From the NCBI GenBank assembly GCA_005800815.1, contig SYEK01000001.1, forward strand, positions 1 through 38,881: DNA of 38,881 nucleotides, written 5' to 3'. Both the position numbers and the translations under genes were made by a program. Below the pieces are notes generated by a model, which made no database searches, was not told where the DNA came from, and was given only the letters and a program-made list of their open reading frames with translations. This document shows positions 4,183 to 25,663 of this stretch, piece by piece; the stretch's first letter is position 1; each line of letters starts with the position of its first letter. The stretch is from Actinomycetota bacterium. GTDB lineage: Bacteria > Actinomycetota > Actinomycetes > Nanopelagicales > Nanopelagicaceae.

Positions 4183-6720
4183 ATGCGCAGAGCGCTCCGC
4201 CGAGCCAGTGACTCTGCAACCCTGAATTTAGATGAAATAACCATCTTGCTCTCGGCAAGGGATGAGGCCTTGTCGCAGCTGTGTGCCTGTGCAGCTCGAG
4301 TGCGAGATGCAGGCTTACTCGAAGCTGGGCGTGCAGGCATCATTACTTACTCACCAAAGGTATTCATTCCTTTGACTCGTCTTTGCCGCGATCGCTGCCA
4401 TTACTGCACCTTTGCAACCACGCCTAACAACGTTAGCTCAGCCTATTTAGAGATTGCTCAGGTAGTTCAGATCGCCAAAGAGGGAGCAAGTGCAGGTTGC
4501 CTTGAGGCACTCTTTACCCTGGGTGATCGTCCTGAAGATAGATGGGAGGTAGCAGGTGAGTGGCTCTCTGAGCGCGGATACTCATCTACCTTGGAGTATT
4601 TACGGGCATGTGCAATCGCAGTTCTTGAGCAGACTGGCTTACTGCCACATTTAAATCCTGGTGTGATGAGTTTTGAGGAGCTCTCGCGCCTGAGGCCCGT
4701 TGCCGCAAGCATGGGGATGATGCTTGAGACATCGTCCACTCGATTATTCACTGAAAAAGGTCAGGTGCACTTTGCCAGCCCTGATAAAGATCCAAAAGTT
4801 CGATTACGCACTATCGAGGATGCCGGTCGATTATCGATTCCGTTTACGACTGGTATTTTAGTAGGAATTGGTGAATCGCTGTTGGAACGGGGAGACTCTC
4901 TCTTAAAGATAGCAAAAATAGCGAAAACATACGGTCATATTCAAGAGATTATCATTCAAAATTTTAGAGCTAAAGAAGATACCGCGATGCGTAATTCACC
5001 CGATGCTGACCGTCAAGAGTATCTAGCATGTATCGCCGTTGCCCGTCTAATATTTGGTCCTCGAATGCGCATTCAAGCACCACCGAACCTATCTGAGCCT
5101 TCAGAGTTCGCCGCTCTTATCGCTGCCGGAATCGATGATTGGGGTGGAGTTTCACCAGTCACTGCCGACCATGTCAATCCTGAGAGACCTTGGCCAGAAA
5201 TCGAATTACTGGCCCATGAGGGCCAGTTGGCTGGTTTTGAGTTACGAGCACGTCTAACTATTTATTCAAACTTTGTGCAGTCAGTGGATCGATGGGTTGA
5301 TCCAAAAATGAAGCCTTTCATCAACTCATTGGCAGATCACAATGGATTAGCAACCCCGCATGTCAGAGCAGTTGGTTCGCCTTGGCAAGAACATAGTGAG
5401 GGCCTGCAGAGTGTGGGTCGAATTGATCTAGGTGACTCGATTGATATCCGGGGTCGTGATAGTCAGATGCGAAGTGACTTTGACTCAATTTATGGGCACT
5501 GGCCAAGCATCTCGGATGAGTTCGATCAACTCAGGTCGACAGGCTCTCCTGCCTGGAAGTCATCCTTCATGTCTGTGCTGTCAAAAGTGAGCAAAAATCC
5601 CAGTGCCCTTTCCAGGAATGAGGCTCTGACCCTATTTGCTGCCGATGGTCAAGAGCTTGACTCACTCGTGCAAGCCGCAGATGAAAAACGCACTGAATTA
5701 GTGGGTGATGATGTCACTTATATAGTAAATAGAAATATCAACTTCACGAACATCTGTTATACCGGCTGTAGATTCTGCGCTTTTGCACAACGTAAGAGTG
5801 ATGCAGATGCATATCTACTCTCTATTGAAGAGATCAAGTTACGAGCCAATCAAGCATGGGCCCTGGGTGCCAACGAAGTTTGTATCCAGGCGGGTATTCA
5901 TCCTGATTTACCTGGTGATGTCTACTTTGATGTGGCACGTGCAGTAAAGGAAGTGGCACCCGATATTCATATTCATGCCTTTTCACCTATGGAAATATTT
6001 AGTGGTTCAATCAAGTTAGGAATCTCATATAGAGAGTGGTTACAACAAGCTAAAGATGCTGGTCTTGGGACAATTCCTGGTACTGCTGCTGAGATTTTAG
6101 ATGATGAGATCCGTTGGATTCTCACAAAGGCAAAATTACCTGCAAAAGCTTGGATAGAGATAGTCCGCGAAGCACATTTGTTAGGTATCAGATCCTCAGC
6201 AACAATGATGTATGGACACATTGACAATGAGTCACATTGGTATGATCACATAATCACAATTAGGAATTTGCAAGTAGAGACCGGTGGCTTTACCGAATTT
6301 GTCCCACTTCCATTCGTGCACTACTCATCACCAATCTACTTGGCTGGTATTGCCAGGCCAGGTCCAACAGTAAGAGAAAATCGAGTTGTTCACGCCATGT
6401 CCAGATTGTTATTGGCAGGTTCAATAAATAATATTCAATGCTCGTGGGTCAAACTCGGATTACATGGCCCAGATGGTGTGCTCTCTCTTTTGGCTGGCGG
6501 GGTAAATGACATTGGTGGAACGCTGATGGAGGAGACAATCAGTCGAATGGCTGGGAGCACTCATGGCTCTTTGCGAACTGTCTTTGAACTAGAGGAGATT
6601 GCCCAGTTGGCCGCTCGTCCGGCACGGGCACGTACCACCACTTATGGGGCCGTCTCCTCTGATCGCGAGAGACTCTCACGCCGTGCTAATATCAAGCAAT
6701 TGTTTCCGGGGTCGGTGTAA
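4183..6720 (+). CDS. fbiC: FO synthase, fused CofG-CofH (FbiC)
   Basis: FbiC makes 7,8-didemethyl-8-hydroxy-5-deazariboflavin, the chromophore of coenzyme F420, from tyrosine and 5-amino-6-ribitylamino-uracil. The 845-residue protein has two radical SAM halves. The N-terminal CofG-like half has the iron-sulfur motif CRDRCHYC (Cys68, Cys72, Cys75), and the C-terminal CofH-like half has CYTGCRFC (Cys525, Cys529, Cys532). Each CxxxCxxC binds a 4Fe-4S cluster that cleaves SAM. Length and domain order match the fused form of Actinobacteria. The riboflavin operon follows at once and supplies the shared uracil intermediate. The last codons and the TAA stop lie inside the FMN riboswitch. I use ATG 4183; no better in-frame start fits the SD at 4160-4167, whose spacing is long. 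Confidence 0.95.
6684..6692 (+). promoter_or_regulatory. Extended -10 promoter of the rib operon, inside fbiC
   Basis: TGCTAATAT is an exact extended -10 (TGn plus TAATAT), located in the 3' coding end of fbiC. A start seven nucleotides downstream falls at about 6699, where the first strand of riboswitch stem P1 begins. No clear -35 is present, as is common with extended -10 promoters. It would let the riboswitch and rib genes be transcribed without fbiC. Confidence 0.5.
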
Positions 6721-6824
6721 TTCCGAACCGGCAGTGAAAGTCTGCGACCCGAACGCATCCAGCGCTCGGTGGACTTGGTGTAAATCCAAGACCGACGGTT
6801 AAAGTCCGGATGAGAGGGAACAAT
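6699..6824 (+). ncRNA. FMN riboswitch (RFN element) aptamer
   Basis: The conserved RFN blocks are present in order: a GGTCGGTGTAATTCCGAACC-like first arm, a GGCAGTGAAAGTCTGCGACCC arm, a variable hairpin, GGTGTAAATCC, GACCGACGGTTAAAGTCC, and GGATGAGAGG at the 3' end. P1 can form between 6699-6707 (ATTGTTTCC) and 6816-6824 (GGGAACAAT), nine pairs including one G-U. The aptamer binds FMN and lowers expression of riboflavin genes, which fits the rib operon that follows. The 5' part overlaps the last seven codons of fbiC, whose stop codon (6718-6720) is in the first conserved arm. Confidence 0.93.
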
Positions 6825-6830
6825 AAATAG

Positions 6831-22236: not shown

Positions 22237-22278
22237 TTCACGGGCAAAATCCGCTCTTTAGGCTCAGATTTAATCGAC

Positions 22279-22308
22279 TTGCACAAAGCTCAACCCATGC
22301 TTTACCCT
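22279..22308 (+). promoter_or_regulatory. Putative whiB7 promoter with AT-rich upstream flank
   Basis: TTGCAC (22279-22284) and TACCCT (22303-22308) are 18 bp apart. The bases directly upstream of the -35, GATTTAATC (22267-22275), are AT-rich. In mycobacteria, WhiB7 activates its own promoter with SigA by binding an AT-rich stretch just upstream of the -35 through its AT-hook. The same layout here suggests autoregulation, which is an inference. Confidence 0.5.
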
Positions 22309-22316
22309 TTGAATTA

Positions 22317-22339
22317 CCTCATTTCTTGGCGAAATGAGG
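22317..22339 (+). other. Hairpin at the 5' end of the whiB7 leader RNA
   Basis: CCTCATTTC (22317-22325) pairs perfectly with GAAATGAGG (22331-22339) around a 5-nt loop. With a transcription start near 22315 it would sit at the very 5' end of the leader. It is not followed by a T-tract, so it may protect the RNA or keep the following SD (GGGAG, 22352-22356) open. Confidence 0.6.
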
Positions 22340-22365
22340 GTGAGTAGATAAGGGAGTAACGAATT

Positions 22366-22521
22366 ATGCCTCAAGCATCATTCCTACCAGCACAGGCAAT
22401 GCCTTCTGCTGGGATTTCCTCTACCCACACCCATAAGCGCACATCTTGGCATAGCCCAACGCCTGCATTCTATGCAGCGTTCTATGCAGGATATGAGGCC
22501 AATGGTGGTTCTACTCGATAA
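22366..22521 (+). CDS. 51-codon leader ORF (uORF) upstream of whiB7
   Basis: An ATG at 22366 lies nine nucleotides after SD GGGAG and opens a 51-codon frame ending in TAA (22519-22521). The peptide resembles no known enzyme; its C-terminal part carries a short repeat, FYAAFYAGYEA, encoded by a 10-nt direct repeat (22468-22477 and 22480-22489). The frame ends 23 bases before a strong intrinsic terminator. The codons for Gly-Tyr-Glu-Ala (22489-22500) form the 5' strand of a competing antiterminator. In mycobacteria and other Actinobacteria, whiB7 is controlled by a translated uORF and attenuation, and this frame is in the matching place. Its main role is probably to sense translation, although a functional small protein cannot be excluded. 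Confidence 0.7.
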   Translation: MPQASFLPAQAMPSAGISSTHTHKRTSWHSPTPAFYAAFYAGYEANGGSTR

Positions 22522-22559
22522 GACTCGAATAAGAACAAGAAGCCAAGGGCCTCGAATCC
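22489..22559 (+). promoter_or_regulatory. Putative antiterminator pairing in whiB7 leader
   Basis: GGATATGAGGCC (22489-22500, inside the leader ORF) can pair with GGCCTCGAATCC (22548-22559, most of the 5' arm of the terminator). The pairing has ten Watson-Crick pairs, one G-U and one A-A mismatch, and it excludes the terminator. A further small hairpin, CCTGCAT (22462-22468) with ATGCAGG (22484-22490), competes at its left edge. The position of the translating ribosome could therefore choose between termination and read-through into whiB7. Confidence 0.55.
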
Positions 22560-22581
22560 ACAAAGGATTCGGGCCCTTTTT
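22545..22581 (+). terminator. Strong intrinsic terminator in the whiB7 leader (attenuator)
   Basis: AAGGGCC (22545-22551) pairs with GGCCCTT (22572-22578), and CGAATCC (22553-22559) with GGATTCG (22565-22571), with one unpaired T and a loop of five. A T-run (22577-22581) follows. This is the clearest intrinsic terminator in the window. It lies between the leader ORF and whiB7, so it must be bypassed for whiB7 expression from the upstream promoter. Confidence 0.85.
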
Positions 22582-22610
22582 CATTACCCGAAGAGAGATC
22601 TGAGCACTAC

Positions 22611-22630
22611 CTAACATCGAAAAATGTTAG
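22611..22630 (+). other. Hairpin just before whiB7
   Basis: CTAACAT (22611-22617) pairs perfectly with ATGTTAG (22624-22630) around a six-base A-rich loop. It lies between the attenuator and the whiB7 SD GAGGTG (22646-22651). It may shape ribosome access or RNA processing; no function is known. Confidence 0.5.
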
Positions 22631-22657
22631 CCAACACAGGAAGAAGAGGTGAGGACG

Positions 22658-23083
22658 ATGAGCGTTCTCTTCAGCGAACTACTAGTACCAGGCTGGGCAG
22701 ATGAGAAGATTGGGTTGGATGCCGTAACCGGCACATACAGCGATGGATCATCACTGAATCTGCCATGTCACACGGCAGATCCGCAGATGTACTTCTCCGA
22801 GGATGAGTTAGCCATCACCGAAGCTAAGTCCCTCTGTGGTGGCTGCCCAGTGCGCACGCAATGCCTAGAGGGTGCTCTATCTCGCAAGGAGCCGGCCGGT
22901 GTGTGGGGTGGGGAACTATTTGAAGATGGTCGTGTCATCACTCGCAAACGCAAAGCCGGTCGCCCAAGTGCGATTGAAGTTGCCGCTCGCGAGGTGAGTG
23001 CGCCTATTCAAAAGATGCCTTCGCTACCAGAGGTCACTTCTCCTGCCTCTGATGAAGTAGTGCGTAGAGAGAGCGCTGCCTAA
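22658..23083 (+). CDS. whiB7: WhiB7-type iron-sulfur transcription factor
   Basis: WhiB7 is a 4Fe-4S protein that works with the primary sigma factor to switch on intrinsic antibiotic-resistance and redox genes. The 141-residue product shows Cys37, Cys60, Cys63 and Cys69 (C-x22-C-x2-C-x5-C), the GVWGG turn (81-85), and a basic AT-hook-like end, RKRKAGRPSA (96-105). The AT-hook right after the WhiB core is the mark of WhiB7; the usual RGRP is AGRP here. About 37 residues beyond the hook are variable. Position next to uvrD2, as in Mycobacterium, supports the call. I chose ATG 22658, seven bases after SD GAGGTG, over GTG 22649. Upstream lies a leader ORF and terminator, implying attenuation control. 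Confidence 0.88.
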   Translation: MSVLFSELLVPGWADEKIGLDAVTGTYSDGSSLNLPCHTADPQMYFSEDELAITEAKSLCGGCPVRTQCLEGALSRKEPAGVWGGELFEDGRVITRKRKAGRPSAIEVAAREVSAPIQKMPSLPEVTSPASDEVVRRESAA

Positions 23084-23088
23084 TTTTC

Positions 23089-23901
23089 TTAACTTGCATA
23101 GAGATTCAAATTTGTCAGTGAAGGCCAGAGGGCAAAGAGAATTGAGATTGGCAGGATGAGAAAGACGACAGGAATCATCATTGATATCTCTGCCTTGCCA
23201 GCTGCAGCCATGATGATATTGCGCTGATTGGCACGTGCCTCCACGGCATGTCGCGATAAGACCTCAATAAGTGGGGCTCCGCGGAGAGTAGCGGTGATAA
23301 TCGCATCGATAAATCGTCGAATCATTATTGATTTAACACGGCGGCCCATAGCATCAAGACCCAAATGCAGTGGTTCACCAGTGCGAACAGCAATAATGAC
23401 ATTCCCAAATTCTCTCGCAAGTTCACCATCTGCTGAATCTGCGATACGCAGCATCGCACTCATTGGAGTCTCCCCAGCTGCTATGGCTAGTGTGAGCATC
23501 TCCACCACCGCAGGAAACTCCGCCTCTATCAATTCGCGTCGCCTATTAACTCGGGTAGTTAAATCTCTATCAATGATAACGAAGAAAAAAGAAGCGATGA
23601 GAATAACCGTGAGCAGGCAGGTAAGAAGTGAATGCTTGAAGATGAGAACTAAGACCATCACTATTGCCGAACTTGCTGCGCAATAACCAAACTGACGAAT
23701 ACGAAAATCCTGGTAATCACGCTCACTATTGAGCCCAAGCTCCTCTAAACGTAGACGGATACCACTTTTATCACGGGTTTTTCCTATGCTTGCTTTAGCT
23801 CTGCGCTCTAACTCTTTAAATGGGTCACCATGGGAATCGAGGGCAAGGAGTAGGCCACCGGGAACAGCAAAAAGCATTGCAATCAGGATGACTGTTAGCA
23901 C
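23089..23901 (-). CDS. tadC: TadC-like inner-membrane platform protein (T2SSF domain)
   Basis: This 270-residue membrane protein has the type II secretion F (T2SSF) domain that forms the inner-membrane platform of Tad/Flp pili. One hydrophobic segment lies at the N-terminus, a pair near residues 75-110, and another at the C-terminal end. Between them lies the cytosolic domain, with EFPAVVEMLTLAIAAGETPMSAM, a typical T2SSF pattern. The GTG start overlaps the tadB stop by one base (TAGTG) with AGGAG upstream. It is the last gene of the tad cluster and converges on whiB7 with a 5-bp gap. Confidence 0.82.
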   Translation of the reverse strand: MLTVILIAMLFAVPGGLLLALDSHGDPFKELERRAKASIGKTRDKSGIRLRLEELGLNSERDYQDFRIRQFGYCAASSAIVMVLVLIFKHSLLTCLLTVILIASFFFVIIDRDLTTRVNRRRELIEAEFPAVVEMLTLAIAAGETPMSAMLRIADSADGELAREFGNVIIAVRTGEPLHLGLDAMGRRVKSIMIRRFIDAIITATLRGAPLIEVLSRHAVEARANQRNIIMAAAGKAEISMMIPVVFLILPISILFALWPSLTNLNLYAS

Positions 23902-24626
23902 TATCGACTCCTATCTTGTTTGCCAGTGAATATTCGAGGTGCTGCAGGTAGGCGACCTAAACGATTCATCCATAGATATGCAATTCCAGTCATAAGTAAG
24001 CCCACAATTAGAATCGAAGCGCCAGTAGAAGTTGAATATGCCATGGCGGTACTAGGTTGTGTCGAGAGCAAGAGAAGTAGAATCCATGGCGCAACTGCTG
24101 ATAAGTGAGCAGAGTTTTTGATCCATCCATGTTTGACTTCGATCTCTCGGCGCAATGCTAAATCTTGGCGAAGAAAATCCCCAAGGGTCCGGAGAATCCC
24201 TAATAGTTCGCCTCCACCCAAGGCTTTAGAGATCAACAATGCCTCGAAAATCTGATCACTTCCATGGTGTTGAAAGAGATCTTTTAACTCTTTGATTGCC
24301 TCACCGACGTCTCCATGACGATAGAGTGAGGATCGGAACTCTGTGAATGCTGGCCGGAGAATTTCGGGGCCACGAGTTGAGAGCCCAGCAAGTGATTCAG
24401 CCAGAGATAGGCCTGATTGGATACCAGATATCAAGTGGTCGATCACTTCAGGCCAGGCTGCAACCAGAGCTGACTCATTCTTCAGATTTTTACTTCGTAA
24501 AGTGATGAAGGTAATCCCAGCAATAAGTGCTCCAAAAGCTAGTGCGATAGCGATTGATTCAGTAGCAAGATAAATAATTACAATGGTAAAGCAAGAAGAG
24601 GCAACAGTACGAAGTTTGATTTTCAT
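23901..24626 (-). CDS. tadB: TadB-like inner-membrane platform protein (T2SSF domain)
   Basis: This protein of about 241 residues is the second platform subunit, pairing with the tadC product to hold the pilus ATPase. It begins with two hydrophobic stretches (SSCFTIVIIYLATE and IALAFGALIAGITFITL), then has a cytosolic T2SSF domain with LISGIQSGLSLAESLAGLS and ALGGGELLGILRTLGDFLRQD, followed by two C-terminal hydrophobic segments. I chose ATG 24626, which overlaps the cpaF stop as ATGA; an in-frame start at 24638 is possible. Gene order cpaF-tadB-tadC is typical of Tad clusters. Confidence 0.82.
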   Translation of the reverse strand: MKIKLRTVASSCFTIVIIYLATESIAIALAFGALIAGITFITLRSKNLKNESALVAAWPEVIDHLISGIQSGLSLAESLAGLSTRGPEILRPAFTEFRSSLYRHGDVGEAIKELKDLFQHHGSDQIFEALLISKALGGGELLGILRTLGDFLRQDLALRREIEVKHGWIKNSAHLSAVAPWILLLLLSTQPSTAMAYSTSTGASILIVGLLMTGIAYLWMNRLGRLPAAPRIFTGKQDRSR

Positions 24627-25663
24627 TTGCGCCACCAACTGGAGAGAGGTGCCCCTATTGCTGCGAACTTCTCAGTATGTGGAGGTATTCCGATACCACG
24701 CTCATATTCAAGCCCATTCCAAATCCATAGAGTTTCAATCTCAGCACGATCATTCTCATATCGTCCAGTCAGTGCAGATATCTCTTTGATACGCCGCATT
24801 CCACTTTGATCAAGGGATATATGCACGATTAGATCAAAGGCAGATGCAATAGTTGGGGCGATAAACTTATGAGAGATATTCTCACCAGCCAAGAGTGGAA
24901 GTGTCTGTAGCTTGATGATTGCATCACGAGGAGAGTTGGCATGGAGAGTACCCATACCAGGAAGACCGGAGTTAAGGGCGATAAGAAGATCCAATGCCTC
25001 AGCCTCACGGACCTCCCCGACAATAATTCGGGACGGGCGCATACGTAGTGACTCTTTGATTAATCTACGCAATGGGACCTCACCTTCACCTTGAAGATTT
25101 GGACCTCGGGTTTGTAGTGCAACAACATCGGGGAGCTGTGGACTGAGCTCAAATACCTCTTCAATTGTCACTACCCGTTCTGTACGTGGTATTGCACCTG
25201 CCAATGCGTTGAGCATTGTGGTTTTGCCTGCCTGGGTACCACCACTTACTAGGATGTTTAAACCAGCACGAACTGAATTTTTGAGTGCCGTTGCTATAAA
25301 TCCTGTCATCACTTCACGCTCGACTAGGTCATCAATACTTAAGTTACGCATGAGATGCTTTCGAATATTAACAGCCCAGTGCATGGCTGTAATCTCCGGG
25401 ATTACAACGTGTAAACGGCTTCCATCGGGTAATCGTGCATCGACAAATGGATGGGAGAGATCCAAGCGGCGACCGCTCCACATCAGGGCGCGCTCGACGA
25501 TATTGCGTACATCCTCTGAGGTGAGCAAAAGATTGGTCAACTCACTCTTGCCAGAGCGGGCAATAAATATACGCTCTGGGGCATTAATCCAAATCTCTTC
25601 AATTGTTGGATCACTCATAAAAGGTGCAAGGGCACCAAAGGTAATATCTATATCTAGCTGCAT
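24623..25663 (-). CDS. cpaF: CpaF/TadA-family pilus or secretion ATPase
   Basis: This 346-residue ATPase powers assembly of Tad pili or a related export machine at the cytosolic face of the TadB/TadC platform. It has the N-terminal domain with DPTIEEIWINAPERIFI, Walker A GGTQAGKTTM (residues 141-150), VVTIEEVFEL (Asp box region), the Walker B region RPSRIIVGEVREAEALDLLIALNSG, and the His box GMGTLHANSPRDAI. It lacks the longer N-terminal extension of some CpaF proteins. The usual GTGAGKT is GTQAGKT here. It lies 45 bp after the GGDEF-like gene on the same strand, so these genes probably form one operon. Confidence 0.88.
   Translation of the reverse strand: MQLDIDITFGALAPFMSDPTIEEIWINAPERIFIARSGKSELTNLLLTSEDVRNIVERALMWSGRRLDLSHPFVDARLPDGSRLHVVIPEITAMHWAVNIRKHLMRNLSIDDLVEREVMTGFIATALKNSVRAGLNILVSGGTQAGKTTMLNALAGAIPRTERVVTIEEVFELSPQLPDVVALQTRGPNLQGEGEVPLRRLIKESLRMRPSRIIVGEVREAEALDLLIALNSGLPGMGTLHANSPRDAIIKLQTLPLLAGENISHKFIAPTIASAFDLIVHISLDQSGMRRIKEISALTGRYENDRAEIETLWIWNGLEYERGIGIPPHTEKFAAIGAPLSSWWRK

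Follow-up and report, generated by a model that had tools for sequence, protein, structure and literature searches.

A whiB7 leader with a uORF, a terminator and an antiterminator in a streamlined freshwater actinobacterium

The closest described system is the uORF-mediated attenuator of whiB7/wblC in Mycobacterium and Streptomyces, which was reportedly worked out by Burian & Thompson 2018, Lee et al. 2022 and Dinan et al. 2014. Leaders of actinobacterial whiB7 genes typically contain a uORF, a terminator and an antiterminator that overlaps sequences of both (PMC10727445). Attenuation of whiB7/wblC under uORF control has been established by transcriptomes of M. bovis and M. marinum (PMC4128351) and is stated in a review (PMC11550727); the attenuation mechanism in characterised relatives and induction of the gene by starvation are both described in PMC11550727, PMC10727445 and PMC13393426. 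In mycobacteria an AT-rich motif immediately 5' of the -35 element is the site of WhiB7 autoregulation (PMC3905903).

Here we analysed a window of 38,881 nucleotides, meaning the whole stretch of DNA, from a genome of 1.285 Mb (99% complete). Its promoter, 51-codon uORF, terminator, antiterminator and whiB7 gene very probably form a whiB7/wblC uORF transcription attenuator, in this case in a streamlined freshwater actinobacterium. As in Mycobacterium and Streptomyces, a long leader carries a uORF with a Shine-Dalgarno sequence, a Rho-independent terminator and an antiterminator made from the uORF end and the 5' arm of the terminator, with an AT-rich box 5' of the -35 element, WhiB7 downstream and uvrD2 upstream. 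The differences lie in the peptide, the terminator arm and the host. Elsewhere the uORFs are Ala-rich and often end in ...WSPPV, whereas here they are short, with a PAFYAAFYA-type patch and ends of the form ...TWSxIG or ...GGSTR; the terminator arm reads GGGCCUCGAAUCC instead of GGCCGCGG; and the host has a streamlined 1.3-Mb freshwater genome, unlike the characterised hosts Mycobacterium and Streptomyces. The mechanism is thus already known, and what is new is the lineage together with the lineage-specific feature of the peptide. In the literature collection searched, no paper names both whiB7 and Planktophila, and none of the papers listed for Nanopelagicales mentions whiB7. Searches against Rfam produced nothing credible, either for the window leader or for six loci taken from elsewhere in the class, outside this family.

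Two further groups of leaders share parts of this design. In amino-acid leader attenuators such as trp and M. tuberculosis ilvB1 (PMC13236596) the position of the ribosome on a short ORF selects terminator or antiterminator and a ribosome at the stop codon blocks the antiterminator, as proposed here; the present target, however, is a stress regulator and not a biosynthetic operon, and the uORF has no run of a single control codon. ABC-F resistance leaders (vmlR, lmrC, are5sc/tiaA) likewise combine a uORF with a conditional terminator, but their uORFs are very short or drug-specific (MLV in are5sc), and genes and sequences are different.

The whiB7 gene and the anatomy of its leader

Promoter, AT-rich flank, 51-codon ORF with its Shine-Dalgarno sequence, terminator and whiB7 were each found where a preliminary description of this DNA had placed them:

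22267-22308, + strand: candidate promoter, with AT-rich box TTTAATCGAC, -35 element TTGCAC (22279-22284), CCATGCTTTACCCT and -10 candidate TACCCT (22303-22308)
22317-22339, + strand: 5' hairpin between promoter and uORF Shine-Dalgarno sequence, with a covarying stem and a conserved (U/A)UGGCG loop
22350-22356, + strand: Shine-Dalgarno sequence of the uORF, AAGGGAG
22366-22521, + strand: uORF of 51 codons, MPQASFLPAQAMPSAGISSTHTHKRTSWHSPTPAFYAAFYAGYEANGGSTR, stop codon TAA at 22519-22521
22462-22488, + strand: PAFYAAFYA, uORF codons 33-41, a candidate control-codon or stall segment directly 5' of the antiterminator
22546-22581, + strand: intrinsic terminator, stem 22546-22559 paired with 22565-22577, then a T run
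22640-22657, + strand: ribosome-binding region of whiB7 (GAAGAAGAGGTGAGGACG), whose conservation among close relatives extends to the start codon
22658-23083, + strand: whiB7, start ATG at 22658, Pfam Whib 1e-16

The protein is 91% identical to a 'Candidatus Planktophila' MAG protein, and further matches are named Planktophila or Nanopelagicaceae. Its top match among solved structures is M. tuberculosis WhiB7 (7kif, 2e-22); other WhiB proteins (6e-10 or worse) trail it by about twelve orders of magnitude in E-value. The alignment shows both the GVWGGE turn and the GRP AT-hook core of a WhiB7 orthologue. The gene order is nudC (NAD-diphosphatase), a UvrD2-type helicase gene (uvrD2), leader and whiB7. 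Within the short flanks fetched, UvrD2 was found upstream of whiB7 at 80 of 90 family loci and at 22 of 42 other loci of the class. On the 3' side whiB7 is adjoined on the opposite strand by genes with T2SSF and T2SSE domains (23089-25663, -), resembling Tad/Flp-pilus export, and the same contig carries an FMN riboswitch (RF00050, 104.6 bits) at window positions 6698-6825 (+). One genome (G092) has two whiB7 loci, L044 and L047, on separate contigs with near-identical leaders, which might reflect duplication or a mixture of strains.

The -35 and -10 elements are candidates that we assigned ourselves from conservation. TTGC and ATGCTTTA are strongly conserved across about 26 aligned close relatives, and the -10 candidate TACCCT fits TANNNT; a generic sigma-70 scan called no promoter at 22267-22308. 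The box TTTAATCGAC abuts TTGCAC on its upstream side, and TTTAATYRAC-TTGC is kept in most close relatives, as would be expected of an AT-rich WhiB7 box upstream of a -35 element. In a regulon search of the same genome, an extended, strict form of the WhiB7-promoter pattern matched whiB7 and one other site. The 5' hairpin further downstream behaves as a conserved structure: exchanging its halves between 17 deduplicated relatives weakened it (z -3.7, p 0.0002).

The uORF is present at the same place in nearly all relatives, and its 3' end lies about 10-25 nt upstream of the terminator in nearly all family leaders. The terminator hairpin has a folding energy of -22.7 kcal/mol, and an intrinsic terminator precedes whiB7 in 88 of 90 family leaders; the other two are a short contig end (L088) and a miss of the scan (L044).

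A long antiterminator with the uORF stop codon at its apex

The antiterminator has the following parts:

22489-22559, + strand: antiterminator hairpin of about 70 nt, three stacked helices whose apical loop contains the uORF stop codon
22489-22500 with 22548-22559, + strand: P1, the outer helix, which shares the 5' arm of the terminator
22503-22506 with 22542-22545, + strand: P2
22508-22518 with 22525-22536, + strand: P3

A 12-nt duplex between the uORF and the terminator had been proposed as the antiterminator. The pairing itself is real and specific: GGATATGAGGCC (22489-22500) pairs with 22548-22559 at 11 of 12 positions, counting one G.U and leaving one A.A mismatch, and shares the terminator 5' arm. 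As the entire antiterminator, however, we rejected it, since the transcript up to the terminator 5' arm folds into one long hairpin of which the duplex is merely the outer part. The fold of 22484-22561 reaches -29.8 kcal/mol (z -4.8), with none of 200 shuffles as good, and comparable long hairpins occur in the other genera examined. A weak P1, of about -9 to -12 kcal/mol, is found in one sister group, g4.

In 82 of 84 relatives the apical loop and the uORF stop codon overlap, against 34% of shuffles. Among 41 leaders from elsewhere in the class, outside this family, there are 39 in which no more than 6 nt separate the stop codon from a hairpin apex, which argues that this is the same system and not a new one. 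The suggestion that the locus might be an undescribed version therefore finds no support, also because the same combination of uORF, terminator and antiterminator has been published as typical for actinobacterial whiB7/wblC (PMC10727445; PMC11550727). A stop codon at the antiterminator apex is a structural rule across those families of the class that were sampled.

Because MAFFT does not keep the columns of the full antiterminator in register from genus to genus, covariation was assessed by alignment-free swap tests and a covariance model; a two-way residual test was used for the swaps, since raw energy ranks are confounded by the GC content of the arms. Among 33 deduplicated relatives, a uORF end paired better with its own terminator arm than with the arm of another species, by 3.4 kcal/mol (z -7.9), while a control stretch 45 nt further upstream gave no signal in the same test (z +0.6). 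When codons were shuffled synonymously, leaving the peptide unchanged, the pairing became worse (Wilcoxon p 1e-7). Exchanging the 5' and 3' halves of the antiterminator between species cost 7.0 kcal/mol (z -11.7), and both the outer antiterminator (z -8.5) and the apical hairpin (z -6.4) contributed. In the covariance-model alignment 22 of 24 pairs had changed on both sides, which none of 500 shuffles equalled, and slid controls were far lower; this alignment is biased towards the structure, having been fitted to it and containing about ten matches on the opposite strand. The antiterminator is thus built from the 3' part of the uORF and the 5' arm of the terminator, and the earlier proposal of a whiB7 attenuator under uORF control with mutually exclusive terminator and antiterminator withstood the checks on the uORF and on compensatory change.

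When 201 genomes of the order were scanned with the covariance model, 75 had a match, essentially a single site in each, and the matches sit in the whiB7 leader wherever whiB7 positions could be compared. With model R1, built from sister genera, the window scores below threshold, and most class-level leaders and the window's own genus subgroup are missed; the shortcoming here is the model's and not the structure's. Since the hairpin is nearly symmetric, some antiterminator regions (L089, L068, L041 and others) obtain a covariance-model score on their reverse strand too.

Ribosome position and the proposed switch

The preliminary description had stated that a ribosome at the stop codon does not fully hide the antiterminator strand. 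This is correct: in a simple mask model of a transcript without the terminator 3' arm, P1 still has a probability of 0.98 with the ribosome at the stop. Folding the ribosome-masked leader gave a P1 probability of 0.95-0.99 with the P-site codon at or before 37, and of 0.00 at codons 41-50. Judging from ribosome size, the two P1 strands would fall on opposite sides of a ribosome at the stop. For the hairpin as a whole the effect is large. A ribosome at the stop weakens the antiterminator from -29.3 to -10.6 kcal/mol and removes 61% of its pairs on average. The terminator, at -22.6 kcal/mol, is then the stronger hairpin in 84 of 84 leaders; with no ribosome present, the antiterminator is the stronger one in 79 of 84. 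Taken over the full hairpin, these energies answer the question of ribosome position: a ribosome at the stop would favour termination. At equilibrium the whole RNA favours the terminator in every ribosome state, and read-through must therefore need the antiterminator to form first, presumably by kinetic trapping.

From these models, completed translation should lead to termination, and stalled or absent translation to read-through. RNA polymerase would transcribe the uORF with ribosomes following behind. A ribosome terminating at the stop codon would sit on the apex of the antiterminator and remove P2 and P3; the leftover P1 would lose to the terminator, and transcription would end ahead of whiB7. 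The stop-at-apex rule would explain in this way how a terminating ribosome selects termination. If the ribosome were slow, stalled or absent 5' of about codon 37, the whole antiterminator could form before the terminator 3' arm, and the polymerase would read through into whiB7. Such stalls might be caused by drugs, by a shortage of charged tRNA or by arrest within PAFYAAFYA, and WhiB7 would probably reinforce its own promoter via the AT-rich box. Our analysis shows the anatomy, the covariation, the selection on the peptide and the balance of energies; which way the control runs, which signals induce it and the autoregulation are inferred from whiB7/wblC in mycobacteria and Streptomyces.

A terminator that simply follows a small gene, with the pairing a by-product of coding and with no regulation, would fit the observation that the terminator always wins at equilibrium. 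Nevertheless, the uORF and terminator arms covary across genera, the pairing is lost in synonymous shuffles and the stop codon keeps its place at the apex, and we consider this explanation extremely improbable. It is also highly unlikely that whiB7 is controlled at translation, by a leader structure hiding its start region, or by Rho termination of uncoupled mRNA. An unconstrained fold of the leader does pair a strand of the 5' hairpin with the whiB7 ribosome-binding region, but a conserved T-tailed terminator lies well 5' of the whiB7 start, and Rho acting on uncoupled mRNA would have the opposite sign, with stalling lowering expression.

The aromatic patch of the uORF

Selection acts on the uORF peptide. 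For the window together with 25 close relatives, dN/dS in the uORF is 0.43, with changes mostly at codon position 3. The peptide PAFYAAFYA is identical in all 26, while its DNA occurs in 19 versions; the variation touches each of the nine third codon positions and none of the first or second ones. An invariant peptide with variation in just the third positions is strong evidence, at the level of sequence, that the frame is translated and that these residues matter. In family uORFs, 8-20 codons before the stop, F/Y/W make up 26% of residues. The remaining parts of these uORFs have 6-12%, and the corresponding positions in other families 6%; base composition differs among families, and the remainder of each uORF served as the control for the enrichment. 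Most of the patch directly precedes the antiterminator, in a stretch where a stalled ribosome would not disturb the hairpin. The P2 helix probably dictates a Trp codon (UGG) near the uORF end, but the upstream patch is not explained in this way. We also considered a hairpin formed by the FYAAFYA repeat (22448-22488); by eye it had no consistent compensatory third-position changes, and it is not claimed.

What the patch senses can be read in several ways. The conserved Phe, Tyr and Ala codons might be control codons of an amino-acid attenuator that mainly reports a shortage of charged Tyr, Phe or Ala tRNA and serves only secondarily as a drug sensor, a possible but doubtful reading. The aromatic enrichment and the location of PAFYAAFYA at the limit up to which a stalled ribosome spares the antiterminator point towards it, as does the published response of whiB7/wblC to amino-acid starvation, alanine in mycobacteria (PMC11550727, PMC10727445); yet it is not exclusive, as every upstream stall would induce likewise, and the order of the aromatic residues varies among genera. 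Alternatively, PAFYAAFYA could be a nascent-chain arrest motif with a drug-dependent stall, as in erm-type leader peptides. Strict conservation of the amino acids under free synonymous change is consistent with arrest, but so strict a nine-residue motif is limited to a close genus group while other genera have different aromatic patches, and we think this unlikely. It is a tentative and rather improbable idea, too, that the aromatic patch of the Nanopelagicaceae (PAFYAAFYA and its relatives) is a lineage-specific control-codon or arrest site through which whiB7 responds to the availability of Tyr and Phe or to one particular stall, and that WhiB7 of these streamlined plankton is mainly a regulator for nutrient and translation stress and not for drug resistance.

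As a whiB7/wblC attenuator, the locus is a translation-stress switch, of a kind studied for its part in drug resistance, that has been retained under strong selection in streamlined lake-plankton bacteria, and its retention there fits an older, general role in the sensing of ribosome stalling. A divergent version is seen in two leaders, L091 and L094, where the stop codon lies outside the apical loop and short uORFs end in ..YAMIPPTE and ..YGATPPTPEL.
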